DNA of 64,000 nt from Exiguobacterium acetylicum (GTDB taxonomy: Bacteria > Bacillota > Bacilli > Exiguobacteriales > Exiguobacteriaceae), in NCBI RefSeq assembly GCF_022170825.1, contig NZ_CP081878.1:2935001-2999000 (forward strand). Reading direction: 5' to 3'. The notes below the pieces were generated by a model. The model was not told the DNA's origin and did not search any database. It worked only from the letters and a program-made list of their open reading frames with translations. Numbering within the stretch: the stretch's first letter is position 1; the number at the start of each line of letters is the position of its first letter. Shown in pieces: positions 18,358-32,968 of the stretch. A program made the position numbers and the translations under genes.

Positions 18358-20811
18358 TTAGATGAACAGATTCAAATTAGAGCCATCCGTTGCACCAAGG
18401 TAACTCGCGACACCACCATAATCAATATCATCGAGAAGTTCTTCCTTCTTAATACCCATGATGTCCATCGACATCGTGCAAGCGATCATTCGGACACCCG
18501 CTGCTTGCGCTTTTGCCATCATCGTCTCGAGCGCATCGACTTGTTTATCCTTCATGACTTTTTTCATCATCTTTTGACCGGCTCCTGCCATGTTCATGTT
18601 CGAGAGTGGTAACTCTCCCGCATGTTTCGGCATCATCATGCCCATCATTCGTTCGATGCCTGCTTTTTCGACTGCTGGTGCATCTGGTTTTCGAATGACG
18701 TTCAAACCCCAGAACGTAAAGAACATCGTCACTTGTTTCCCCATCGCCTGTGCACCTTGCGCGATGACGAAAGAGGCAAGTGCTTTATCGAGATCGCCAC
18801 TGAAGACGACCATCGTCGCATCATCCGCCGGATTAACCTGAACAGGTGCTACAGCAGGTGTCTCCCCTTGTCCTTTTTCAAGCAAGACCTCGACAACTCC
18901 TTGATTCATTTCCGCTGAATGGACCGTGTGACCTAGTTTTTTCGCCCATGCTTGAACGTCTGGCAAGAAACCAGGATCAGACGCCTTGACGAAAATTTGC
19001 TCGCCGTCCGTCATCTGATCGATTTTTGTTTTCAGCTCTAAGATTGGACCAGGGCACTGTAAGCCGCACGTATCGAGCAGCGTCACTTGTTCCGGTGCAG
19101 TCTTCGTTTCTGGTTCACGTTTCGTTACCGTCACAGCTGTCTCCTCCTTCGCTTGGCTTCGTGCTTCTTGATCACGATGGACGACTGACCATGTTTTGTA
19201 GCCGCCGCTTAAGTTCTTCACTTCATAACCGTGTTGTTGCAACAGTTGACTCGCAACATATCCACGTAATCCGACTTGGCACGTCACATAAATCGTTTGA
19301 TCCTTCGGCAGATCATCCAACTTCTCACGTAAAGTCGGTAACGAGATATTGACCGATCCAGGAATCGCGCCTAACTCGTTTTCTGAAGGTTCACGGACGT
19401 CAAGTAACAAACCACCGTTCGCAACGATCGCATCAATTTCATGCCAATGAACATTCGCACTGTCACCAAGAACGATGTTCGATGCGATATATCCTGCCAT
19501 ATTGACCGGATCTTTTGCTGAACTATACGGTGGTGCGTACGATAATTCGAGATCTGGTAAATCGAGAACCGTCAATCCACCTTTGATTGCTGTCGCGAGG
19601 ACGTCGATTCGTTTTTCAACGCCTGTCATGCCGATTGCCTGTGCTCCGTAGATCGTTCCTTCAATTGGATCAAACAGTAACTTCATCGAAATCGGACTTG
19701 CCCCTGGGTAGTACCCCGCATGCGATCCCGGATGGAGGTGCACCGCTTCATAACGCAGACCGAGCTGACGCAACCGTTTCTCATTGTTACCTGTCGAAGC
19801 AACCGTCAAGTCGAAGACTTTTGCTACTGCTGTTCCGAGTGTGCCGTTGTACCGGACGTCACGTCCAGCAATGATATCGGCAACAAGACGACCTTGCCGG
19901 TTCGCCGGCCACGCGAGTGGCACATGCGTCGCTTCCTTCGTGATGAAGTCTTTGACTTCGATCGCGTCACCAATCGCAAAGATCGATGGATCGGATGTCC
20001 GCAGTTGATCGTCGACTTGAATCGTCTGTTTGATTCCGAGCGTTAGACCAGCATCTGCGGCTAACGTACTTTCTGGTGCGACACCAATCGACAGGATATT
20101 CATCTCTGTATCGATCACGCGTCCGCTTGTCAGGACGACACGACGACCAGCTTCTTCAAAACGAGCAACGCCATCTTCTAGAATCAACTCGACACCTTTC
20201 GCCCGAAGATGTTCATGAACGATCGCCGCCATTTCCGGGTCGATCGGAGCCATGACTTGATCCGCCATCTCGACGAGGGTGACGTGTGCTCCCCGTTCAG
20301 CGAGATTTTCTGCCATCTCGAGACCAATGAAACCACCACCGATGACAAGTGCTGTATCCGGACGAGTCGTATCAACGTATTCTCGCATCCGGTCCGTATC
20401 CGGGATGTTCCGTAACGTAAAGACGTTCGTTGCATCACTCAGTCCCGGAATGTTCGGACGAATCGGTTTCGCACCTGGAGAAAGAATTAGATGATCGTAC
20501 GATTCATCGTATTCTTCACCTGTTTCGACATTGCGGATCGTGATTGTCTTCGCTTTACGGTTGATGCGAATCGCTTCCGACAAATTACGAACATCTAAAT
20601 TAAACCGTGCATGCATGCCTTCTGGCGTTTGGACGAGTAATTTATTGCGATCTTTGATGACATCTCCGATATAGTAAGGCAGTCCACAGTTCGCGAACGA
20701 AATCTCTTTTCCCCGTTCAAGCAAAATGATTTCTGCCGTTTCGTCAATCCGACGCAATCGTGCTGCTGCCGTAGCGCCACCAGCGACGCCACCTACGATG
20801 ATCGTTTTCAT
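18358..20811 (-). CDS. CoA-disulfide reductase-rhodanese-TusA-DsrE fusion
   Basis: An 817-residue cytoplasmic protein with four domains. Residues 1-445 are an FAD/NAD(P)H CoA-disulfide reductase: GGVAGGATAAARLRR at the FAD site and the redox cysteine at 42 in 'SFANCGLPYYIGDVI'. About 455-545 is a rhodanese with 'TCQVGLRG'. About 583-655 is a TusA/SirA domain with 'CGLQCPGPILELK'. About 665-817 is a DsrE-like domain with 'ACTMSMDIMGIKKEEL'. Together they could reduce CoA-persulfide and pass sulfane sulfur between cysteines. AGGAGG nine bases upstream sets the ATG at 20811. The promoter contains a CstR-like inverted repeat. Confidence 0.93.
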   Translation of the reverse strand: MKTIIVGGVAGGATAAARLRRIDETAEIILLERGKEISFANCGLPYYIGDVIKDRNKLLVQTPEGMHARFNLDVRNLSEAIRINRKAKTITIRNVETGEEYDESYDHLILSPGAKPIRPNIPGLSDATNVFTLRNIPDTDRMREYVDTTRPDTALVIGGGFIGLEMAENLAERGAHVTLVEMADQVMAPIDPEMAAIVHEHLRAKGVELILEDGVARFEEAGRRVVLTSGRVIDTEMNILSIGVAPESTLAADAGLTLGIKQTIQVDDQLRTSDPSIFAIGDAIEVKDFITKEATHVPLAWPANRQGRLVADIIAGRDVRYNGTLGTAVAKVFDLTVASTGNNEKRLRQLGLRYEAVHLHPGSHAGYYPGASPISMKLLFDPIEGTIYGAQAIGMTGVEKRIDVLATAIKGGLTVLDLPDLELSYAPPYSSAKDPVNMAGYIASNIVLGDSANVHWHEIDAIVANGGLLLDVREPSENELGAIPGSVNISLPTLREKLDDLPKDQTIYVTCQVGLRGYVASQLLQQHGYEVKNLSGGYKTWSVVHRDQEARSQAKEETAVTVTKREPETKTAPEQVTLLDTCGLQCPGPILELKTKIDQMTDGEQIFVKASDPGFLPDVQAWAKKLGHTVHSAEMNQGVVEVLLEKGQGETPAVAPVQVNPADDATMVVFSGDLDKALASFVIAQGAQAMGKQVTMFFTFWGLNVIRKPDAPAVEKAGIERMMGMMMPKHAGELPLSNMNMAGAGQKMMKKVMKDKQVDALETMMAKAQAAGVRMIACTMSMDIMGIKKEELLDDIDYGGVASYLGATDGSNLNLFI

Positions 20812-20846
20812 CTGATGATTCCTCCTTGAATTTCTATCTGCCACTT

Positions 20847-21539: not shown

Positions 21540-21552
21540 TTTTTCCTTTCCG

Positions 21553-21588
21553 AACGGCTTTGGAGCCCTGCTCCAAAGCCGTTTTTTT
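21553..21588 (+). terminator. Terminator after the YbjN gene
   Basis: AACGGCTTTGGAG/CTCCAAAGCCGTT arms followed by T7. Confidence 0.9.
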
Positions 21589-21601: not shown

Positions 21602-21630
21602 TTGACAATGAGAATTATTCTCGCTATAGT
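21602..21630 (+). promoter_or_regulatory. Sigma-A promoter of the iron/glycosylation operon
   Basis: TTGACA, 17 bases, TATAGT, with a Fur box filling the spacer. It ends 64 bases before the lipoprotein start. Confidence 0.9.
21604..21622 (+). promoter_or_regulatory. Fur box
   Basis: The 19-base site matches the classical Fur consensus at 15 positions and contains the perfect palindrome GAGAATTATTCTC (21610-21622). Placed between the -35 and -10 boxes, it should give iron-dependent repression of the whole downstream operon. Confidence 0.9.
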
Positions 21631-21694
21631 TAGATTTGTGAAAACGACTACATGACGGAAACGTCTTATTAATTCTTCTGGGGGAATCACGATT

Positions 21695-22879
21695 ATGAAA
21701 AAGCGTTTAAAAGTAGCTTCTATCTTCATGGTAGCCGGTATCTTGGCTGCCTGCGGTTCGAATGAAACGGATACGACTGCACCGAAAAAAGAGAAAACGG
21801 AACAGTCAACAGAAACAAAATCAGCAGATGCGGGGATCGCTGCAACGACACTGACAGATGAATTGACGATCTTCAGCTCAATCAAAACAGAACTCGATAA
21901 AGCAAAAGAAGGACAAGCAATTGATTGGAAGATGGTCAAGACAAGTTATGAATCGAAACTAAAAGGTGGCGTCGAGACGACAGCACCAGAAATCGAACAA
22001 GTTATCCAGTCTGCTTTAGCAGGCGTTGAAGCGAAGGATCTCGATGAGAACATCGCTCGTCAACTTGTCGATAAAGGTCTACAATCCTACTTCTATAAAT
22101 TACAAAAAGCAACACAAGCAAAAGCTGAAGAAGCACTTGTCGCTGGTAAACCGGAAGCGGCAACGGAAGCACTCAAGGACATCGAAGCGATGGCAAAGAC
22201 CGTCTTCATCCCAACAGCTGAGAAACGTGACGCGAGCTACGGCTTTAAAAATGAAGACGCAATCGCTCAAGCAATCACATCAGGTCTTGCAGCTCAACAA
22301 GAAGCAATCGACGCGAAAGAAATCGGTGACTTCAACGTTGCGAAACAAGTGACGGATAAATCGATTTACCGTTCCTTCTATTTAGCTGCACTCGGTTATG
22401 CTCAAAAAATCGAGGATGGCGTCAAAGCTGGTACGGACGAAAAAGAATTACAGATGGAACAAGCAGAAGGATACGGTTTCCTCCTCGCGATCGAAGAATC
22501 ATTAGCAGGCGGAGACGAAGAGGCTGTCAAAACGTTAAAAGAACGTTATGATTTCTCAAAAACAAAACCGGCTGACGTCTCTTACAAAGAAATCGAAGGT
22601 CTATTCGCAAAAGCATTAACAGAAAAAGTCGACGGTTATCATGAAGAGGCACAAGAAGCGATCGAGAAGAAAGACGTCGATACAGCACGCGTAGAAGCAA
22701 TGGAAGCGAACATGTTCGTCGTCGCGATGAAACCGACGCTTGAGAACCGTCTCGGTAAAGAAAAAGCAGCGCAAGTCGCAAAAGACGCAAACGAATGGTT
22801 CGCACTCGTCGAAAAAGGTGACGTCAAGGCTGAAACGACAGGCGAACGGATCACCGACGCACTCGAACCACTTAATTAA
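21695..22879 (+). CDS. Helical-repeat lipoprotein, Fur-regulated
   Basis: A 394-residue surface lipoprotein with a signal peptide ending in the lipobox LAAC and a low-complexity Lys/Thr/Glu linker. The rest is helical and appears to contain two to three diverged copies of one unit. 'ARQLVDKGLQSYFYKLQKA' near residue 125 resembles 'AKQVTDKSIYRSFYLAALGY' near 218, each followed by Lys/Glu-rich helices and an 'xxKDxxxA' turn. First in the Fur operon that also encodes FTR1, it is placed where EfeM/EfeO lies in other systems. The M75 histidine motif of EfeO is not visible, so I do not assign it there. Probable role: extracellular iron capture. Confidence 0.85.
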   Translation: MKKRLKVASIFMVAGILAACGSNETDTTAPKKEKTEQSTETKSADAGIAATTLTDELTIFSSIKTELDKAKEGQAIDWKMVKTSYESKLKGGVETTAPEIEQVIQSALAGVEAKDLDENIARQLVDKGLQSYFYKLQKATQAKAEEALVAGKPEAATEALKDIEAMAKTVFIPTAEKRDASYGFKNEDAIAQAITSGLAAQQEAIDAKEIGDFNVAKQVTDKSIYRSFYLAALGYAQKIEDGVKAGTDEKELQMEQAEGYGFLLAIEESLAGGDEEAVKTLKERYDFSKTKPADVSYKEIEGLFAKALTEKVDGYHEEAQEAIEKKDVDTARVEAMEANMFVVAMKPTLENRLGKEKAAQVAKDANEWFALVEKGDVKAETTGERITDALEPLN

Positions 22880-22906
22880 GAAGGAAAATGGAAACGGAGG
22901 GATAAG

Positions 22907-23818
22907 ATGAATATCGGAATTACGGGAGGTGCCGGCTTCATTGGCGCCGCCCTCGCCCTCCGGCTTCAGCAACAGCATACCGTCCATGTTCTTGATGCTT
23001 TCACGGACTACTATGATGTTCAACTGAAAGAAGAACGAGCAGCTGCATTAAGGCGTGCCGGCGTTATCGTTACGACAGGTGACGTTCATCACGATCTCGA
23101 CGCCTGGATGGAGACATCGTTCGACGCCGTCTTTCATCTCGCAGCTCTTCCAGGTGTTCCGCGTTCGCTCGAGGAACCGCATCACTATATTCGTGAGGAC
23201 ATCGATATGACGGTGACCTTGTTAGAAGCCGCAAAAAGACATGGCATGCCGCATGTCTTTTTCGCGTCTTCTTCTTCCGTTTACGGGGAACAGACTGGTC
23301 CGCTGAAAGAAGATCAGGCAACGGGACACGTCTCCAGCCCTTATGCGGCAGCCAAGTATAGTGCCGAAAGCTTTTGTCATGCTTATGCTCATTTATATGA
23401 TGTAAACGTGACGCTGTTTCGCTTCTTTACGGTCTATGGTCCTTCGGGTCGTCCTGATATGGCGCTGTTTCGATTCATCGAACAGGCATTACGCGGAGAG
23501 GCACTCACCGTCTTCGGTGATCCGATCCGTGACTTCACGTATATCGATGACATCACCCGTGGAATGGAACAGGCGTTGCTGGCTCGTGCAGTAGGGACGT
23601 ATAACCTCGGCGCGAATCAGCCGGTCTCCGTCCGCACTCTAGCTGAACGGATCGGTCAACGGTTTGATGTGCCCGTGCAGACTCAAACTGCACGACGCGG
23701 AGACGTGACGATGACATGGAGTGATACGACAGCGGCACGGGAAGCATTCGGTTACCAACCGTCAATCGAGATCGATGTTGGACTGGAGCAGGTGATCGCG
23801 TGGCATCAAAATCGCTGA
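22907..23818 (+). CDS. NAD-dependent epimerase, UDP-glucuronate 4-epimerase-like
   Basis: A 303-residue extended-SDR enzyme. It has the NAD motif GITGGAGFIGAAL at the N-terminus, the catalytic 'YAAAK', and 'RFFTVYGPSGRPDMALFRF', a stretch characteristic of UDP-glucuronate 4-epimerases (CapI/LpsL type) more than GalE. It would make UDP-galacturonate, the donor for an acidic sugar. It starts 27 bases after the lipoprotein gene with GGAGG, and its end overlaps the flippase gene by 19 bases. Other UDP-sugars remain possible. Confidence 0.85.
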   Translation: MNIGITGGAGFIGAALALRLQQQHTVHVLDAFTDYYDVQLKEERAAALRRAGVIVTTGDVHHDLDAWMETSFDAVFHLAALPGVPRSLEEPHHYIREDIDMTVTLLEAAKRHGMPHVFFASSSSVYGEQTGPLKEDQATGHVSSPYAAAKYSAESFCHAYAHLYDVNVTLFRFFTVYGPSGRPDMALFRFIEQALRGEALTVFGDPIRDFTYIDDITRGMEQALLARAVGTYNLGANQPVSVRTLAERIGQRFDVPVQTQTARRGDVTMTWSDTTAAREAFGYQPSIEIDVGLEQVIAWHQNR

Positions 23819-24654
23819 TCCGAACGCTTCTGTATCTGACGCTTACCGGGCTCGTCATCTTTTTGCTCCTTCGTTTTTTCCTGGAGTTACCGGTCTCGTA
23901 TCGGTATATCGAAGCTCTGTTCAAGAGTCCCTGGACGATCCTTGCGACCTTGACATACGCGATCGCCTTTTATTTACGCGCGGTCGCCTGGCGTCGCGCC
24001 GACTCAAAACGTGCACCAACAGCTGTTTATCTATCAAGTCTGTATCTCGGACTGACGATCAATCACCTTTCACCGGTCAAACTCGGTGAGATGATCCGAC
24101 TCGTGACGGCGAGAGCCGTCGGAAGTCCATGGAAACAGACAAGTGCCATCTTCGTCTTACAACGAAGTATTGACTTGATTGTTCTGTGTACCTTCATTCT
24201 GATCGGCTGGTTGTTTCATCCAATCGTCTTGCTCTTCGCTGTGCTTGCGAGCGGATTGTTGCTCGTGCTACGCCGACATGTCCTGCACCTCCCATCGCTC
24301 GTTCTGTTCGGAACACTCGCTTGGGGAATCGAGGCACTCGCCGTGTTCTTCCTCTTGCATGGAGCAGCTGTCGATGTTTCGTTTCCGACGACATTGATTG
24401 CGATGAGTGCCGGTGTCCTGTCTGGTGTGATTCAGTTCACGCCGGGTGGACTTGGTACGTACGAACTCGCGATGGGTACCGTGTTACGACAAGCCGGTGT
24501 TGCCCATGCGTACGATGTTGCCTTGATGACGCATTTCTTTAAATATGCCTTTGCTTTTCTTATCCCGCTGTACATTCTCATTCGGCATCCGGCTACGCTT
24601 CGGTTGTTGGTTCGTCAGCTCAAATACACTGATTGGAAAGGAGGAAGACGATGA
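23800..24654 (+). CDS. Flippase-like membrane protein (LPG-synthase TM / UPF0104 type)
   Basis: A 284-residue protein with seven to eight hydrophobic segments, of the lysylphosphatidylglycerol-synthase-transmembrane / AglD-like family. Typical motifs are 'YLRAVAWRRA', 'LYLGLTINHLSPVKLGEMIRL', 'VLQRSIDLI' and 'GVIQFTPGGLGTYELAMG'. Relatives are thought to translocate lipid-linked sugars or aminoacyl lipids. The start is a GTG at 23800 inside the epimerase gene, and the end overlaps the next gene by ATGA. In this operon a role in flipping the lipid-linked sugar is plausible inference. Confidence 0.85.
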   Translation: MASKSLIRTLLYLTLTGLVIFLLLRFFLELPVSYRYIEALFKSPWTILATLTYAIAFYLRAVAWRRADSKRAPTAVYLSSLYLGLTINHLSPVKLGEMIRLVTARAVGSPWKQTSAIFVLQRSIDLIVLCTFILIGWLFHPIVLLFAVLASGLLLVLRRHVLHLPSLVLFGTLAWGIEALAVFFLLHGAAVDVSFPTTLIAMSAGVLSGVIQFTPGGLGTYELAMGTVLRQAGVAHAYDVALMTHFFKYAFAFLIPLYILIRHPATLRLLVRQLKYTDWKGGRR

Positions 24655-26087
24655 AAAGTGCTTCTCGCTTTGAAAAAGTCGCAGCACGCGCCTGGAACTT
24701 ACTCAATGAAGGAAAACCCTTCACACCCATTTTTACGATCGGCGTCTTCTTGACGTACGCCTTATGGACGCAGATGCCACTCGCAGAAGCTGGTCTTGGT
24801 TTCATCGTGACGCTTCCTTTATTTATCTTGCTTTGGCGTTATGACTTTCCGTTATTTTTACGAAATTACCTTTGGATCCCGGTTATCGTTTGGCTGTTCC
24901 TTCGCGGTACGAATGCTGATTATTTGCCTTTATTCGCCTATGGTGCGGGTCTCTATTTCTTCTTCACGATCTTTTTCTGGGGAACGATCTACTATCATCT
25001 CCGAATCGGAACACGCTGGACGAACTTCACGCGTTTTTGGAAACTCGTTCTAAAAAATAGTGATTCAACGAGCGGTAACGCACAAGAGCAGCTCCCGAAA
25101 GTTGCCCTATTGCTTATGTACTGGTGGACAGCAAGTGACGCTTCGTCGCTCGACATGACGTTCGTCTGGTTTCCGATTGGTCTATTCATCTTTGCTTGGA
25201 TTTTGCATCATTATCTCTTTGACTGGAAACCGAAGTTGCCCGAGGCAATGACGGTCGATGCTGATCTTCCGACTTCAGAAAAAGTGTACGTCCTGATCGT
25301 CGACGGGATGCGCAAAGATCGCTACATGGCAGCAAACACACCGTTCCTCGAACGATTGCGTCAGGAAGGAACGGAATATACGAACATGGAAACCGTCTAC
25401 CCTGCCCGGACCGTCGTCTGCTTCAGCTCGATGTTCACAGGTGCTCGACCGGAAGATCACGGTATTCATTCGAACATGGTTTGGAACACGACAGGCGTCA
25501 AAACAGACACTGTCTTCGATCGTCTTCGTGCCGTCGATAAATCCGGGAAGATTCTCGGTATCGCCCATCTCGTCGATGCGTTCGGTTCAACCGACGTACG
25601 GACCGTCACAGCAGTCATGCATAACGATGTTGCTGACCGAAATATCGTGGAACGTGCCAAACAAATCGTCCACGAAGAAGACCCTGATCTGCTCGCAATC
25701 CAGTTGATCGGAACGGACCAAACGGGACACAGTCGGGGAACACTCTATTCCGAGTATGTTCAAAAAATAGAAGAAGCAGATGCGCTCCTTGCTGAGTTTT
25801 GTGAAGAACTCGATCGTCTCGGTAAACTCGATGATGCAACACTCATCGTCATGGCGGATCATGGTCAAGCGGACGGAATCGGTGGACACGGTCACTTAGA
25901 TGAGGGCGAACGATTCGTTCCCTTCTGGATGTATGGCAAGAATGTGCACGCCGGTCTAAAAGTCGATACGCACCGCCATATCTTGTCACTCGGACCAACG
26001 ATCACAAAAGTACTAGGGGCAGACATCCCGCACGATAGCCGTGGCGTCTTGTTGACGGAAGCGTTCAAGGAGGCGACATCTAAATGA
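24651..26087 (+). CDS. Membrane alkaline-phosphatase-superfamily phosphodiesterase
   Basis: A 478-residue protein with an N-terminal membrane region of about five segments (to residue ~195) and a C-terminal type I phosphodiesterase/nucleotide-pyrophosphatase domain. The two-metal site is intact: Asp in 'LIVDGMRKDRY', the Thr nucleophile near 254 in 'YPARTVVCF', 'LIGTDQTGHSRG', 'VMADHGQADGIGGHGH'. It could act as a phosphodiesterase or as a phosphoalcohol transferase on lipids. It overlaps the genes on both sides by ATGA. The membrane-fused architecture is unusual for this catalytic family. Confidence 0.85.
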   Translation: MKSASRFEKVAARAWNLLNEGKPFTPIFTIGVFLTYALWTQMPLAEAGLGFIVTLPLFILLWRYDFPLFLRNYLWIPVIVWLFLRGTNADYLPLFAYGAGLYFFFTIFFWGTIYYHLRIGTRWTNFTRFWKLVLKNSDSTSGNAQEQLPKVALLLMYWWTASDASSLDMTFVWFPIGLFIFAWILHHYLFDWKPKLPEAMTVDADLPTSEKVYVLIVDGMRKDRYMAANTPFLERLRQEGTEYTNMETVYPARTVVCFSSMFTGARPEDHGIHSNMVWNTTGVKTDTVFDRLRAVDKSGKILGIAHLVDAFGSTDVRTVTAVMHNDVADRNIVERAKQIVHEEDPDLLAIQLIGTDQTGHSRGTLYSEYVQKIEEADALLAEFCEELDRLGKLDDATLIVMADHGQADGIGGHGHLDEGERFVPFWMYGKNVHAGLKVDTHRHILSLGPTITKVLGADIPHDSRGVLLTEAFKEATSK

Positions 26088-26812
26088 AGATCATCGTCTT
26101 TTTACCGGCACACAATGAAGAAGTGTCGCTACCGCTCGTCTTGAAACGAATTCCCGATATGATTGACGGTATACCAGTCGAGACCCTCGTCATCGACGAC
26201 GGTTCGACGGATGCAACGAGTGCGATCGCACGCCAACACGGTGCACATGTCTATCGGTTCGAGCAGAATCAAGGTCTCGGCGCTGCTGTCCGCGAAGGAC
26301 TCCGCCAATCGCACGAACTCGGAGCTGATGTTGCCGTCATGATCGATGCCGATAATGAGTACCCTGCTGATCAAATCCCGGATATCGTTCGACCAATCCT
26401 AAACGATCAAGCCGATTACGTGTTCGGTTCTCGTTTCCTCGGTACCGTTGACGGGATGCGACTCTATCGCTATATTGGCAATCATGTCTTCACATGGTTA
26501 CAGTGTCTATTGCTGAAACGCAGAATTCATGACGGTCAAAGTGGGATGCGGGCGTTTTCACGCGCAGCGTGTCACCATGCTGAGATTATTCATGATTATA
26601 ACTATGCACAAGTATTGACCCTCAATCTCGTTCGAAAAGGGTTCCGCCTTCACGAAGTCCCGATTCGTTATCGAGTCCGAGAAGCCGGAAAGTCCTTTAT
26701 CCGTTTGAATTATGTCCAACGTGTTCTCCCGGCGATTTACCGGGAGTGGCGACGTCCTATCACTCAACTCAGCGTCGAAGAACGCACTGAACGAAAGGAG
26801 CATCTCGGATGA
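26084..26812 (+). CDS. GT2 glycosyltransferase, polyprenyl-phosphate sugar synthase-like
   Basis: A 242-residue GT-A-fold family 2 glycosyltransferase of the DPM1 type without C-terminal membrane spans. Motifs in order: 'LPAHNEEVSLPLVL', 'VIDDGSTDAT', 'QGLGAAVREGL', the metal-binding 'MIDADNEYP', and 'DGQSGMRAFS'. Relatives move a sugar from a nucleotide donor to polyprenyl phosphate (dolichyl-phosphate mannose synthase; RgtE for galacturonate). Its position between the epimerase and a GT-C transferase supports that role. Overlaps of four bases with both neighbours. Confidence 0.9.
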   Translation: MKIIVFLPAHNEEVSLPLVLKRIPDMIDGIPVETLVIDDGSTDATSAIARQHGAHVYRFEQNQGLGAAVREGLRQSHELGADVAVMIDADNEYPADQIPDIVRPILNDQADYVFGSRFLGTVDGMRLYRYIGNHVFTWLQCLLLKRRIHDGQSGMRAFSRAACHHAEIIHDYNYAQVLTLNLVRKGFRLHEVPIRYRVREAGKSFIRLNYVQRVLPAIYREWRRPITQLSVEERTERKEHLG

Positions 26813-27543
26813 AACGCCTTCTTTTGCTACCGCTACTCTTGCTCTCCCTTTTCGTAGGTAGCCCTTCTGTCTCCGCTTATAGTTACGGAGACCCCGGAAA
26901 GGAAGCTTTTGCGGAAGCGTACAAACAATTTGAAGAACAGCTCGATGCTAAAGATTACGCGCTTGCGAAAGAAACACTTGCCGCCTATGATAAAGAGTTC
27001 AAACTGTATTTCCCTGAAGCGAAAGCGAAGATCGACACGGCTCTTGAACAAGAAGATGCCGAGGCTGCTAAACAAGCATACCGCGTCGCTCTTCGCCAAA
27101 ATATCGAACGCCGCCTGCACTTTGCTGAAGAGCAGTTCGAAGATTTCGGGCAAGCGAAACTCTTACTCGCGAAAGCTCGTGGCACGTATGATGTGCTCGC
27201 ACCATACGTCAAGGAAAGCAAGGATGCAAAGACATCCGATGATGTGTATACTGCATTTGATGAATCATTAAAGGCACTCGGAAATCCTGGACTGTTTGGT
27301 GTCGGGAAAAAAGCGAGTGATGAAGAATCCTTCAAGAAAAACATTACGATGATCGAAGATACATTAACACCGCTCTTCGTCCTGCCGGGTGAAGAAAAAA
27401 CAGGCGTCTTTACGGAAGAGGACTCTTTCCTCGGTCAAACGTTCGGAACAGACGCGATCTGGAAGCTGATTGCGCTCGGACTTGTCGTCGTACTCATCGT
27501 CATCGTCGTCATCGGTCAATGGAAGAAGAAACGTCGCTCATAA
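26809..27543 (+). CDS. FTR1-associated helical membrane-anchored protein
   Basis: A 244-residue protein with a cleavable signal peptide (to about residue 23), a mainly helical extracellular part, and one C-terminal membrane segment followed by KKKRR. Sequence such as 'QFEEQLDAKDYALAKETLAAYDKEFKLYFPEAKAK' resembles the extracellular N-terminal domain that is fused to FTR1 in YwbL/EfeU of B. subtilis. Here it would be a separate gene directly before the permease. It probably handles iron before transport. The family match is from pattern only. Confidence 0.75.
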   Translation: MKRLLLLPLLLLSLFVGSPSVSAYSYGDPGKEAFAEAYKQFEEQLDAKDYALAKETLAAYDKEFKLYFPEAKAKIDTALEQEDAEAAKQAYRVALRQNIERRLHFAEEQFEDFGQAKLLLAKARGTYDVLAPYVKESKDAKTSDDVYTAFDESLKALGNPGLFGVGKKASDEESFKKNITMIEDTLTPLFVLPGEEKTGVFTEEDSFLGQTFGTDAIWKLIALGLVVVLIVIVVIGQWKKKRRS

Positions 27544-27555
27544 GGAGGAAGACAG

Positions 27556-28473
27556 ATGGATTTTCAAGCGTTTTTGATTACGCTTCGGGAGTGTCTCGAG
27601 GCTGTTCTGATCGTCGGTTTGATCTTAGGTTATCTCGATCGATTGAACGCCCCGCAATATAAGAAATGGGTCTATGCCGGTGTTGGACTAGCGCTTCTTG
27701 CCAGTCTCGGTGTCGCGTTCTTGTTCCAAGTCGTCTTCACGAGCTTTGCAAGCTTCGGAAGTGATACGTATCTTCGTCTCGGTATCATGATGGTCTCTGT
27801 CCTTCTCTTGACGCACATGGTGCTGTGGATGGGTAAGGAAGCGAAAGAGAATCAAAAAGCTTCCCAAGCGAAAGTCGCCGCTGCTGTCTCAACAGGTAGT
27901 GCGATTACGATGATCATCCACTCGTTTCTCGTCATCGTTCGAGAAGGAATCGAAACAGTCTTTTTCTTCGCTGCCATCTCAGGTGGGGAAATCGAGAAAG
28001 TCCTGACAAGTTACGGTGCGGTTTCCGGTCTCTTACTCGCGTTGATTTTCGGATACTTATTCGTCTCAGGATCAATGAAAATCCCAGTCAAACGCTTCTT
28101 CCAAGTGACCGGTGTACTGATCCTATTCATCGCTGCAGGCATGCTCGTCCAAACGATTGGACGATTCCAAGATCTTGGTTTGCTCGGTAGTCTCCTGATG
28201 AATGCTGACGGCACTCCAGCTGCTGTCTATAACATCGTCGGCTTCATGCCGGAGCATTACATCGATCAGGTACAATACCTGCGCGATACCGGCAATTCGA
28301 CGTTGATCAGTGGACAAATCGGAACGTTCATGGGCGCGATGTTCGGATATAGTCATAATCCATCTCTTGAACAAGTCGTCGCTTGGTGGGGCTACTTCGC
28401 CTTTGCTGGTTGGATGTTACTCCGCCAAAACAAACCATCGAAGTCATCGAAGTCCTTACAGGAGGTTTCTTGA
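27556..28473 (+). CDS. FTR1-family iron permease
   Basis: A 305-residue, seven-segment permease of the oxidase-dependent iron transporter family (FTR1/EfeU). Two REXXE iron-binding motifs are present: R-E-C-L-E at residues 11-15 and R-E-G-I-E near 129-133. Without the N-terminal extracellular domain of YwbL, it relies on the partner encoded 12 bases upstream. AGGAGG precedes the ATG. It should import iron when Fur repression is lifted. Confidence 0.95.
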   Translation: MDFQAFLITLRECLEAVLIVGLILGYLDRLNAPQYKKWVYAGVGLALLASLGVAFLFQVVFTSFASFGSDTYLRLGIMMVSVLLLTHMVLWMGKEAKENQKASQAKVAAAVSTGSAITMIIHSFLVIVREGIETVFFFAAISGGEIEKVLTSYGAVSGLLLALIFGYLFVSGSMKIPVKRFFQVTGVLILFIAAGMLVQTIGRFQDLGLLGSLLMNADGTPAAVYNIVGFMPEHYIDQVQYLRDTGNSTLISGQIGTFMGAMFGYSHNPSLEQVVAWWGYFAFAGWMLLRQNKPSKSSKSLQEVS

Positions 28474-29849
28474 CCGTTCGAAGCGATCGTTCACGTCCGC
28501 GTGGACGATCGCTTTTTTGGATCACCCTTCTGTTCATCGGTGGCTGGATCGGTTTACGGATTTTGTATGTCAGTCCGTTCATCGCGAGCTACGATATCGC
28601 GAACTTTACGCTAGCTGTGACCGATTATGATTTAGCAGATTTACGCCCGCACTTCCCGGGCTATCCATTCTTCATTTTATTGGCGAATCTTTTTCTTCCA
28701 CTGACGACAGCTATCAAAGCGCTCGGTCTCGTTTCTACACTTGGACTAGCAAGTGCCCTGTTGCCACTCTACTCGCTCTTTCGTCGTCATGCCTATGATA
28801 CGACTCGGTTGATTGCTGCCTTTACCGTTCTCTCTACTGCCTCACTCGTTACGTTCGCTGCGACAGGGATGTCGGATGGACTCGCCCTTGGATTACTCGT
28901 CTGGTACGGCTGGAGCATCGAACGCGCACGGCATAAGATTCGCCGCTGGCTCCCGTATCTCTTATTCGGTTTACTGATGGCGACGCGCTTGTCCTATGCG
29001 CCGTTTGGTTTCATGCTCCTCGTCCTACTGTGGCAAGTGCGAAAGGATTATTGGCAACTCTTATCCGAGTGTGCGCTGCTTCTACTTGCACAACTCGCTT
29101 GGTTGCTCCCGGTCGCCTTCTCCGTTGGCGGTCCTTACTCGTTTCTTCAGCTCTCGCTTCGCTTCGTCAGTGGTCATTTTTCCGACTGGGGTGGTTCTGC
29201 TCAGACTGATGACGCCTCGTTTTTCCAACGATTCGTCAAGACGCTTCAGCAACTCGTCTGGCATGGCATCGGCTATGGCACGTGGATTGGGTTGGTGTCC
29301 GGGATGATGCTGTTCTTACGCAAACGTTGGACGATCGATCTCGCTTGGGGGACGACGGCTGGACTCTATTTCATCTGGGTTTGGCTCGGACAAAATATTG
29401 ATAAGCCCCGTCATGTCTTACCGCTCGTGCTCCTGTTTCTCGTCTGGTCGATCCGTCAGCTTCCGTTACGAATGTACCTGCCGTTTTTAGTCGTTCAGTT
29501 AACAATCGGTAGTTTAGCGTTGAACGAACAAGCAACGCGTCCGCCAGCAACGATTGAACTAGCGCGTTACGTGACGACCCTTTCACCAGGAGCAACCGTC
29601 TTCACGGATGAGGAAGCTCGCCAATTCGAGTCTGAACGACCAAATGCTTCAATCGTTCCGATCGGTTCCGTCAGTAAATGGAATGCAGAACCAAAATCCG
29701 ACCAGAGTTACGTAACTGGTCGATTACTCGAGCGTCTTTATGCTCAAGGTGTTCGACCTAAAGTCAAACAGGTCGTCCGCTTTACGAGTGATTCCCGATA
29801 CGAACCGGAAGATGCAAAAGCGAGGCTATATCAGTTAATAGCACCTTGA
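28470..29849 (+). CDS. GT-C membrane glycosyltransferase
   Basis: A 459-residue protein with about ten membrane segments. The first extracellular loop carries acidic residues and the pattern 'SYDIANFTLAVTDYDLADL' then 'PHFPGYPFF', typical of GT-C enzymes (PMT/GT39, RgtA/ArnT-like) that use polyprenyl-phosphate sugars outside the membrane. The start is a TTG at 28470 that overlaps the FTR1 stop, with AGGAGG just upstream, so translation is coupled. It would be the final transferase of the operon's glycosylation pathway. The acceptor (lipid, polymer or the lipoprotein) is unknown. Confidence 0.82.
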   Translation: MTVRSDRSRPRGRSLFWITLLFIGGWIGLRILYVSPFIASYDIANFTLAVTDYDLADLRPHFPGYPFFILLANLFLPLTTAIKALGLVSTLGLASALLPLYSLFRRHAYDTTRLIAAFTVLSTASLVTFAATGMSDGLALGLLVWYGWSIERARHKIRRWLPYLLFGLLMATRLSYAPFGFMLLVLLWQVRKDYWQLLSECALLLLAQLAWLLPVAFSVGGPYSFLQLSLRFVSGHFSDWGGSAQTDDASFFQRFVKTLQQLVWHGIGYGTWIGLVSGMMLFLRKRWTIDLAWGTTAGLYFIWVWLGQNIDKPRHVLPLVLLFLVWSIRQLPLRMYLPFLVVQLTIGSLALNEQATRPPATIELARYVTTLSPGATVFTDEEARQFESERPNASIVPIGSVSKWNAEPKSDQSYVTGRLLERLYAQGVRPKVKQVVRFTSDSRYEPEDAKARLYQLIAP

Positions 29850-29870: not shown

Positions 29871-29922
29871 AAAAACCATGTCGACTCCCGAATGACTCCG
29901 GGGAAATCGACATGGTTCTTTT
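29871..29922. terminator. Terminator ending the iron/glycosylation operon
   Basis: AACCATGTCGA/TCGACATGGTT arms with an inner CTCCCG/CGGGGA hairpin, then T4. It can serve both strands. Confidence 0.8.
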
Positions 29923-31618: not shown

Positions 31619-32968
31619 ATGAAAGTAGCAGTCATCGGATGTACACACGCAGGAACAGCAGCAGTCAAAGAACTCGCTTCACAACAAGATGTCGAGATCA
31701 CCGTTTATGAGCGGAATGACAATGTATCGTTTCTCTCTTGTGGGATCGCACTTCACGTCGGTGGTGTCGTCAAACATGCGGAATCGCTATTCTACTCGTC
31801 ACCAAGTGAACTTGCTGAACTCGGAGCAGAGATGCGCCTAAAACATGATGTACTTGAAATCGATAGTGAACGTCAAACGATCGTTGCGAAAAACCTCATG
31901 ACTGGTGAAGTCGTTCACGATACGTACGATAAACTCATCATGACAACAGGATCATGGCCAATCATTCCGATGCTTCCTGGCATTGAGTTGAATCAGATCG
32001 AGCTCTGTAAAAACTATCATCACGCCCAAACGATCATTGAAAAAGCGACAGATGCAGAGCGCATCACAGTCGTTGGTGCAGGCTATATCGGTGCTGAACT
32101 GGTTGAAGCGTTTGAAGCATACGGAAAAGACGTCACGTTCATCGATAGCGCGGATCGCATTCTCAACAAATACCTCGACCGCTCGTTCACTGACGTCATT
32201 GAACAGGAATTAACAGATCGCGGCATTCGTCTCGAACTCGGACAAACCGTCCAAAGCTTCAAAGGAGAAAACGGTGCTGTCACACACGTCGTCACGGACA
32301 AAGGAACGTTCGAAACAGACCTCGTCATTCTTTGTGTCGGTTTCCGTCCAAGTACGGAACTCCTAAAAGGACAGGTCGATATGCTACCGAACGGCGCGAT
32401 CATCGTTGACGATTATATGCGGACGAGCAACCCGAACATCTTTGCTGCTGGTGACAGCTGTGCCGTCTATTACAACCCAGCTCGGACACATGCCTATATT
32501 CCACTTGCAACAAATGCTGTCCGGATGGGTACGCTCATCGGAAAAAACTTACGCGCACCTAAAATTCGTTACCAAGGAACACAAGGCACATCCGGTCTTC
32601 GCTTATATGACTTAAACATCGCGTCGACTGGTTTGACAGAAGAAGCAGCACCATTGTTCGGACTTGAAGTGAGCAGCACGACAGTTACGGATGCGTATCG
32701 CCCAGAGTTCATGCCAACAGCAGAAGACGTCCAATTAAAACTCGTCTTTGAGACAGCAACACATCGTGTCGTCGGTGCACAAATCATCTCTAAAGTCGAT
32801 TTGACACAGGCGATGAATACACTGTCTGTCGCGATTCAAAATGACATGACACTTGAAGAACTCGCTTTCGTCGATTTCTTCTTCCAACCGCACTACAACA
32901 AACCGTGGAACTTGCTGAACCAAGCAGCTCTGCAAGCAATGAACGAACGCCAATCAGCTCGCGTCTAA
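31619..32968 (+). CDS. nox: H2O-forming NADH oxidase
   Basis: A 449-residue flavoprotein disulfide reductase. The N-terminal FAD motif is 'VIGCTHAGTAAVKEL', the redox cysteine is residue 41 in 'VSFLSCGIALHVGG', the NADH motif is 'ITVVGAGYIGAELVEAFE', and the C-terminus 'FVDFFFQPHYNKPWNLLNQAAL' matches streptococcal-type Nox closely. It reduces oxygen to water with NADH and so regenerates NAD+ and lowers oxygen stress. CoA-disulfide reductase is the main alternative. Rex-like and FNR-like sites upstream fit redox control. Confidence 0.88.
   Translation: MKVAVIGCTHAGTAAVKELASQQDVEITVYERNDNVSFLSCGIALHVGGVVKHAESLFYSSPSELAELGAEMRLKHDVLEIDSERQTIVAKNLMTGEVVHDTYDKLIMTTGSWPIIPMLPGIELNQIELCKNYHHAQTIIEKATDAERITVVGAGYIGAELVEAFEAYGKDVTFIDSADRILNKYLDRSFTDVIEQELTDRGIRLELGQTVQSFKGENGAVTHVVTDKGTFETDLVILCVGFRPSTELLKGQVDMLPNGAIIVDDYMRTSNPNIFAAGDSCAVYYNPARTHAYIPLATNAVRMGTLIGKNLRAPKIRYQGTQGTSGLRLYDLNIASTGLTEEAAPLFGLEVSSTTVTDAYRPEFMPTAEDVQLKLVFETATHRVVGAQIISKVDLTQAMNTLSVAIQNDMTLEELAFVDFFFQPHYNKPWNLLNQAALQAMNERQSARV

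Follow-up and report, generated by a model that had tools for sequence, protein, structure and literature searches.

Why does the gene for an FTR1-family iron permease lie within a set of genes for lipid-linked glycosylation, and do the two functions belong together? The question is raised by an eight-gene operon in a 64,000-nucleotide stretch (the window; all coordinates are positions within it) of an Exiguobacterium genome of 3.36 Mb. An initial annotation of this DNA had proposed that iron import is coupled to a complete lipid-linked glycosylation pathway under control of the iron regulator Fur. We find the coupling well supported by comparison across genomes, and it is gene content, co-inheritance, conserved iron boxes, a predicted protein fold and key residues that carry this conclusion. 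Which sugar is moved, and onto what, is argued below in more guarded terms.

Eight open reading frames occupy the plus strand from 21695 to 29849, in the order lip, epi, flip, pde, gt2, part, ftr1 and gtc. They form the tightly packed, co-directional set that had been described at this place. The genes and the signals around them are as follows.

21552-21584, plus strand: terminator-like hairpin of the upstream gene (15 pairs, then a T run)
21602-21630, plus strand: promoter TTGACA-17-TATAGT (agrees at 11 of 12 positions, more than any other sigma-70-like match in the region)
21609-21623, plus strand: Fur-type iron box TGAGAATTATTCTCG, between the promoter hexamers
21695-22879, plus strand: lip, FEA1-like lipoprotein (all-helical, with about 48 disordered N-terminal residues)
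22907-23818, plus strand: epi, short-chain dehydrogenase/reductase resembling uridine diphosphate (UDP)-glucuronate 4-epimerase (Pfam, similarity to PDB chains, Arg185 motif)
23800-24654, plus strand: flip, flippase-like membrane protein, PF03706 LPG_synthase_TM (expectation value, E, 2e-20; start uncertain)
24651-26087, plus strand: pde, membrane type-I phosphodiesterase of the alkaline-phosphatase superfamily (Pfam, catalytic residues)
26084-26812, plus strand: gt2, putative GT2 polyprenyl-phosphate sugar synthase (Pfam/NCBIfam)
26809-27543, plus strand: part, FTR1 partner, secreted and helical, with a C-terminal membrane anchor and the motifs AYSYG and LGNPGLFG
27556-28473, plus strand: ftr1, FTR1-family iron permease, of a subtype found only alongside pde in Bacilli
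28460-28465, plus strand: AGGAGG, ribosome binding site of gtc, as read from the sequence
28470-29849, plus strand: gtc, GT-C glycosyltransferase with a TTG start over the ftr1 stop (Pfam matches of relatives, fold)
29874-29917, plus strand: terminator-like hairpin of the operon (-24.4 kcal/mol, z -4.9)

Spacers of 27 nucleotides between lip and epi and of 12 between part and ftr1 separate the genes, and five start codons within the operon overlap the preceding stop. The epi/flip overlap is 19 nucleotides, provided that flip starts at GTG 23800; ATGA overlaps join flip to pde (ATG 24651), pde to gt2 and gt2 to part; and ftr1 and gtc are joined by a TTGA overlap, the TTG start of gtc at 28470 standing behind its AGGAGG just as first noted. 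The pde reading frame itself opens at TTG 24633, and the start at ATG 24651 was judged by orthologs. The families originally named were recovered as well: Pfam and NCBIfam identify the epimerase, the PF03706 protein, the type-I phosphodiesterase, the GT2 enzyme and FTR1, and relatives together with the predicted fold identify the GT-C enzyme.

If the two functions belong together, they should be inherited together. We surveyed 399 Bacilli genomes, in which the positives were 17 Exiguobacterium genomes and 37 outside the genus. The pde orthologs of the 37 non-genus genomes share about 49-63% identity with the operon's copy, after which identity drops to 32-35%; the ftr1 subtype is found in 37 non-genus genomes at 45-65%, and the next best matches reach at most 36%. 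The two genome lists are identical, both outside the genus (37/37) and overall (54/54), and the genes never occur apart; of 19 Exiguobacterium genomes, 17 carry both and two carry neither. The hypergeometric probability of this pattern, 3e-68, is nominal and too small given the relatedness of the genomes, which cover 17 families besides that of Exiguobacterium. The partner gene part accompanies them in every one of the 37 non-genus genomes and is missing from the two Exiguobacterium genomes that lack this FTR1 subtype. A search of 19 genomes of the sister genus gave no match to this FTR1, and none of the plasmid records carried pde.

Linkage gives the same picture. In the 37 relatives, gt2 always adjoins pde, and gtc is placed with pde in 34 and with FTR1 in the remaining 3; all eight genes fall inside 19 kb in 19 genomes. 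Gene order varies among these relatives (for example lip-part-gtc-ftr1-epi-pde-gt2), and selection is therefore favoured over a frozen neighbourhood. The initial annotation had named regular separation of the glycosylation genes from FTR1 in related genomes as an argument against its proposal. Instead, ftr1 and pde share one locus in 30/37, and the other 7 genomes have them on different contigs with both still present. As to location, the cluster of many Bacilli (loci L073-L090) occupies one chromosomal site, bordered at one end by fatty-acid/electron-transfer-flavoprotein genes and a small thioredoxin-sized gene and at the other end by uvrC-like and aspartokinase-like genes; we take these neighbours to be trxA/etfAB and uvrC.

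Is the operon under iron control? We scored Fur-type boxes against TGATAATNATTATCA, a 7-1-7 pattern with 14 informative positions. The box TGAGAATTATTCTCG agrees at 11 of these 14, a modest match for a single site, as a score of at least 11 is reached by 8% of random 420-nucleotide stretches. We nevertheless consider it credible because it is kept across the genus, because the motif is over-represented in the genome and at siderophore genes, and because boxes recur before lip and part in relatives. It is retained in each of the nine Exiguobacterium loci whose flank is long enough, identically in eight and with a single change at the uninformative centre in one (L040). Genome-wide there are 29 motif sites versus 9 for the reversed pattern, and six perfect copies flank genes for IucA/IucC siderophore synthesis, siderophore binding, an ATP-binding cassette (ABC) transporter and flavodoxin. 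A box scoring at least 12/14 stands ahead of lip at 22 of 31 loci and ahead of part at 23 of 37, whereas only 3.8% of background stretches contain one; the loci include mutual relatives. By its motif, the operon is thus a predicted member of the Fur regulon, with a conserved promoter box that is common to other iron genes of the genome, and the reported Fur box inside a strong promoter stands. We infer that iron starvation would induce the operon through Fur.

The distribution of boxes also suggests how the operon came to be arranged. Many Bacilli appear to have two Fur-type units, lip-epi-flip-pde-gt2 and part-ftr1-gtc, and these appear fused into one operon in Exiguobacterium. Where the glycosylation genes are unlinked from FTR1, four of the five loci with readable upstream DNA (L094, L095, L097 and L102) each begin with their own 13/14 box, and the fifth (L091) has no box at 11/14 or above; two further unlinked loci (L096, L101) lie at contig edges and show a box before part instead. 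Apart from the operon, a perfect Fur-type box at G000:C1:1325334 (L165) separates the genes of a siderophore-binding protein and a GAF-GGDEF diguanylate cyclase, and iron control of cyclic-di-GMP is a possible reading of this site.

Two Exiguobacterium genomes (G010 and G011, loci L151 and L152) amount to a natural deletion. The seven genes downstream of lip have gone in one piece, with the genes on either side of the operon intact. Both genomes keep lip, at 84-86% identity, together with a scrap of the gtc 3' end. Their promoter and box have decayed, with TTGACAATGAGAATTATTCTCGCTATAGT changed to TTAAAAATATGAATTATTCTCCTTACGT. Comparison of these loci indicates that the seven genes were lost as one unit and that the iron-controlled promoter was not maintained after the loss. 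In the window, two genes for pyridine nucleotide-disulphide reductases resembling CoA-disulphide reductase flank the region (18358-20844 and 31619-32968), and their products share about 28% identity.

Does the pathway follow FTR1 itself, or ferric iron more generally? Outside Bacilli pde is rare, occurring in 6 further genomes among the 299 of a phylum sample. In two of them (L155, 7220-18896; L159, 2282-13410), an unbroken stretch holds epi, flip, pde, gt2, part, lip and gtc together with solute-binding protein and ABC permease genes, to which L159 adds an ATPase gene. With E 3e-99, the L155 binding protein resembles ferric-binding proteins of solved structure, a perfect 14/14 box lies directly upstream of its gene, and no FTR1 was found in that genome. 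The part proteins of both loci are without the C-terminal membrane anchor. The other four genomes (L156, L157, L158 and L160) belong to a genus of 74% guanine-plus-cytosine content and have pde and gt2 on the same strand. Two of these loci, L156 and L160, were read in detail: pde-gt2, a repeat lipoprotein, FbpA, an unassigned membrane protein, the FbpB permease, the FbpC ATPase and an epimerase are all encoded on one strand. The FbpA-type protein of this genus matches 7w3w at E 3e-78, and in all four loci the sole iron-type box within 19.5 kb is in the promoter before pde. A ferric ABC importer thus replaces FTR1 in L155, L159 and the genus of high guanine-plus-cytosine content, and what the glycosylation genes track is therefore the acquisition of ferric iron and not FTR1 itself. 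FTR1 as the partner of the pathway, as first proposed, holds within Bacilli; FTR1 is not essential, as FbpABC takes its part in these genomes.

Two proteins of the latter genus deserve mention in their own right. The lipoprotein of L156 and L160 has SGTHTGS repeats and a weakly cupredoxin-like tail, making it an attractive candidate, judged by its sequence, for O-glycosylation and metal binding. The membrane protein encoded between FbpA and FbpB looked GT-C-like by eye; it had no Pfam match and its hhalign comparison was weak (probability 18%), which makes it at most a possible GT-C enzyme.

What would the pathway transfer? The closest PDB chains to epi are 5u4q (annotated as a dehydratase), 6zl6 (Bacillus cereus UDP-glucuronate 4-epimerase) and MoeE5, with 6zl6 and MoeE5 in the top four. 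It keeps Arg185 inside an RP[DN]MA motif that is found in 29/29 members; this arginine holds the carboxylate of UDP-galacturonate (PMC12338863). A UDP-glucose-dehydrogenase-like gene lies in or near the cluster in 13 of the 37 genomes, some copies being degenerate, and 33/37 loci have the epimerase, UDP-glucose dehydrogenase or both. In the genome studied here, enzymes of the UDP-glucose dehydrogenase family are encoded elsewhere and not in the operon. The precursor is thus probably a UDP-hexuronate, with UDP-galacturonate the first candidate, in keeping with the galacturonate-type sugar originally suggested.

The final transfer would fall to gtc. Its structural model (pLDDT 87) finds its best fold match in ArnT (Z 23.7 over 400 residues, 5.5 Å), followed by Pmt, ALG12 and oligosaccharyltransferases; its relatives match the PMT_2 (14/24) and TMEM260-like Pfam models. 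D42, which is acidic and lies in the first outer loop, is invariant in 24 sequences, and this residue together with the modelled fold places gtc among the GT-C enzymes. The phosphodiesterase scores 105 bits against PF01663 (NPP-type), has membrane helices preceding its catalytic domain and retains an identical metal/nucleophile set (D224, T260, N281, D362, H366, D409, H410, H421) in 19/19 orthologs. By analogy with the chemistry of its family, we would expect pde to act on a phosphodiester outside the membrane. Divergent pde relatives with 32-35% identity occur at L110, L111 and L112, with no FTR1 nearby; a UDP-glucose-dehydrogenase-like gene adjoins them in L111 and L112.

On the iron side, ftr1 scores 136.6 bits against PF03239 (cut-off 25.3), and its translation contains two RExxE motifs, RECLE and REGIE; RExxE is the iron-binding motif in the membrane helices of FTR1. 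It stays below the cut-off of the EfeU equivalog model NF041756 (174 versus 255 bits). The same genome encodes a second, different FTR1 protein in a 582-codon frame at G000:C1:1590024 (L002). Against NF038033, the FEA1-related lipoprotein model, lip scores E 2e-8 with 33 bits versus a cut-off of 250, and hits with E up to 0.1 were obtained for 22 of 25 orthologs, suggesting that lip is a distant relative of this family. A Foldseek search with lip returned no significant match, and a second look gave only generic helical-bundle rows; we do not claim an iron-binding fold for it. Profiles of lip and part compared with solved structures likewise gave nothing convincing.

Which surface component might receive the sugar? 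The initial annotation had listed the lipoprotein itself, and this possibility is weakened: 3 of the 37 pathway-bearing genomes have no lip, and the 2 Exiguobacterium genomes that lack the pathway do have lip. Its linker was considered as an acceptor, as Ser/Thr content averages 20% there against 9% in the body; the values range unevenly from 6 to 34%, and no conserved target emerged. The part gene is inseparable from pde and is retained in L155 and L159 despite the change of importer. Because lip is separable and part is not, part or an envelope component is favoured as the acceptor over lip alone.

These observations lead to a reading to which we give an even chance: iron starvation induces a lipid-linked pathway that attaches a sugar, probably a hexuronate, to a surface component used in ferric-iron capture. 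We infer the identity of the sugar, the acceptor, the direction of each step, the iron response and the role of pde as follows. In low iron, Fur would come off its site at 21609-21623, allowing expression of the whole operon. UDP-glucose would be converted to UDP-glucuronate by UDP-glucose dehydrogenase, which is encoded elsewhere here and beside the cluster in 13 relatives, and epi would convert UDP-glucuronate to UDP-galacturonate. The gt2 enzyme would then load the hexuronate onto undecaprenyl phosphate. In loci that encode a PF03706 protein, this protein would help to turn the lipid-linked sugar outward. An acceptor on the outer face of the membrane would finally receive the sugar from gtc. 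On the outer side, pde would most likely move or cut a phosphodiester, either a phospho-substituent of the glycan or a lipid-linked intermediate. The likeliest acceptors would be the cluster's secreted iron-capture proteins, above all part and possibly lip. The decorated surface would collect ferric iron and pass it to FTR1, or to FbpABC in other lineages. A narrower version, which we put forward only tentatively, is a Fur-controlled protein glycosylation, in which a hexuronate glycan, possibly phosphorylated, on secreted iron-capture proteins is needed for delivery of ferric iron to the interchangeable FTR1 and FbpABC importers.

Several observations weigh against these proposals. The co-occurrence counts are phylogenetically non-independent. 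In the stretches read, 4 of the 37 loci have neither the epimerase nor UDP-glucose dehydrogenase and 11 have no PF03706 protein, so that in some loci the precursor may be supplied, and the lipid flipped, by genes elsewhere or in another manner. We know of no undecaprenyl-phosphate-sugar pathway in which a phosphodiesterase step is assigned. Relatives of pde of the L111 type have no FTR1 nearby, and several catalytic residues are lost in the L110 and L111 copies, which are possibly pseudo-enzymes. The Ser/Thr enrichment of the lip linker is uneven, and lipoprotein linkers are often of this kind. Finally, the choice of acceptor follows solely from the inseparability of genes.

The alternative that best survives the evidence, and that we regard as rather unlikely, is that an envelope polymer or lipid (lipoteichoic acid, a wall polymer or a glycolipid) is decorated, the acidic or phosphorylated sugar concentrating ferric iron or compensating the envelope under iron stress. 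The rhizobial pathways that use undecaprenyl-phosphate-galacturonate act on lipopolysaccharide, which would favour such an acceptor; so would the lipid A-modifying function of ArnT, the best fold match of the GT-C enzyme, and the lack of a conserved Ser/Thr-rich target in lip. Gram-positive GT2/flippase/GT-C systems of like build act on teichoic acids (PMC7389260). Decoration of the envelope leaves unexplained, however, both the constant association of pde, FTR1 and part in 399 genomes and the retention of part and lip after the importer swap.

Less probable still is a small secreted or membrane glycolipid or sugar-phosphate that chelates ferric iron in the manner of a siderophore, the iron entering through FTR1 or FbpABC. 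The independence from importer type, a phosphodiesterase with no assigned role and the chemistry of hexuronates would agree with a chelator, and FbpA-type proteins do accept chelated ferric iron. FTR1 and FbpABC, however, move iron ions and not whole siderophores, GT-C enzymes normally transfer to a membrane or protein acceptor, and an enzyme for export or assembly is absent from the operon. That the genes merely share a neighbourhood, with a common site and promoter and no joint function, is very improbable and was rejected: one conserved cluster site in many Bacilli (trxA/etfAB, uvrC) would speak for it, yet the genes co-occur in 54/54 genomes despite reshuffled order and split loci, unlinked glycosylation loci have their own Fur boxes, the genes were lost jointly in two Exiguobacterium genomes, and the association recurs with a second type of iron importer.

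If the narrower, protein-based version holds, it would represent a new kind of iron acquisition, with capture by a surface glycan and not by a siderophore. The operon links glycosylation and iron import, which are normally separate fields. The constant association in 18 Bacilli families, the separate boxes of split loci and the recurrence with an ABC importer point to a general, undescribed step in Gram-positive iron acquisition; a context is thereby offered for the partner protein, for a GT-C family and for a membrane phosphodiesterase that had been an orphan. The initial annotation knew of no described system of this kind, and the open-access literature gave us none: we found no description of an FTR1/FEA1 system with glycosylation, of iron regulation in Exiguobacterium or of uronate-based iron capture, and a description elsewhere is possible. 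The iron-tied lipid-linked glycosylation pathway thus appears to be undescribed.

How does the operon relate to the systems that are known? On the iron side, EfeUOB/YwbLMN is likewise iron-regulated, and its operon also encodes extracytoplasmic partners of an FTR1-family permease, whereas here EfeO (imelysin M75/cupredoxin) and EfeB (peroxidase) are absent, with no such Pfam match in the eight proteins; given also the unreached EfeU cut-off, we do not assign the operon to EfeUOB. The FbpABC/FutABC ferric ABC importer, for which we know of no association with glycosylation genes, stands in for FTR1 in L155, L159 and the 74% genus. On the glycosylation side, rhizobial LpsL-RgtE-RgtA and ArnC/ArnT share with the operon a UDP-hexuronate enzyme, a GT2 polyprenyl-phosphate synthase and a GT-C enzyme, whose model is closest to ArnT; they differ from it in that a phosphodiesterase, a PF03706 protein, a tie to an iron importer and a Gram-positive host are found here. 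No lipid A or lipopolysaccharide is expected in this organism. The Pgf system of Streptococcus mutans (PgfS-M1-E-M2), which is proposed to glycosylate surface proteins (PMC5856776), is similar in its GT2 enzyme, epimerase and large membrane proteins. It is unlike the operon in having two PgfM proteins and an epimerase, PgfE, whose predicted substrate is UDP-glucose; it has no phosphodiesterase, and no iron link has been described for it; gt2 reaches only 46 of the 500 bits of the PgfS cut-off and falls outside that system. CsbB/GtcA/YfhO likewise pairs a GT2 enzyme and a flippase with a multi-pass transferase acting outside the membrane. Here, in contrast, flip is a PF03706 protein, none of the eight proteins has a Pfam match to the GtrA family, which sets the operon apart from that system, the GT-C enzyme is unmatched to YfhO, and iron control and the phosphodiesterase are new. 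By analogy, the operon would work like the undecaprenyl-phosphate-sugar/GT-C pathways (RgtE/RgtA, ArnC/ArnT, Pgf and CsbB/GtcA/YfhO), joined to iron import through FTR1 or Fbp.

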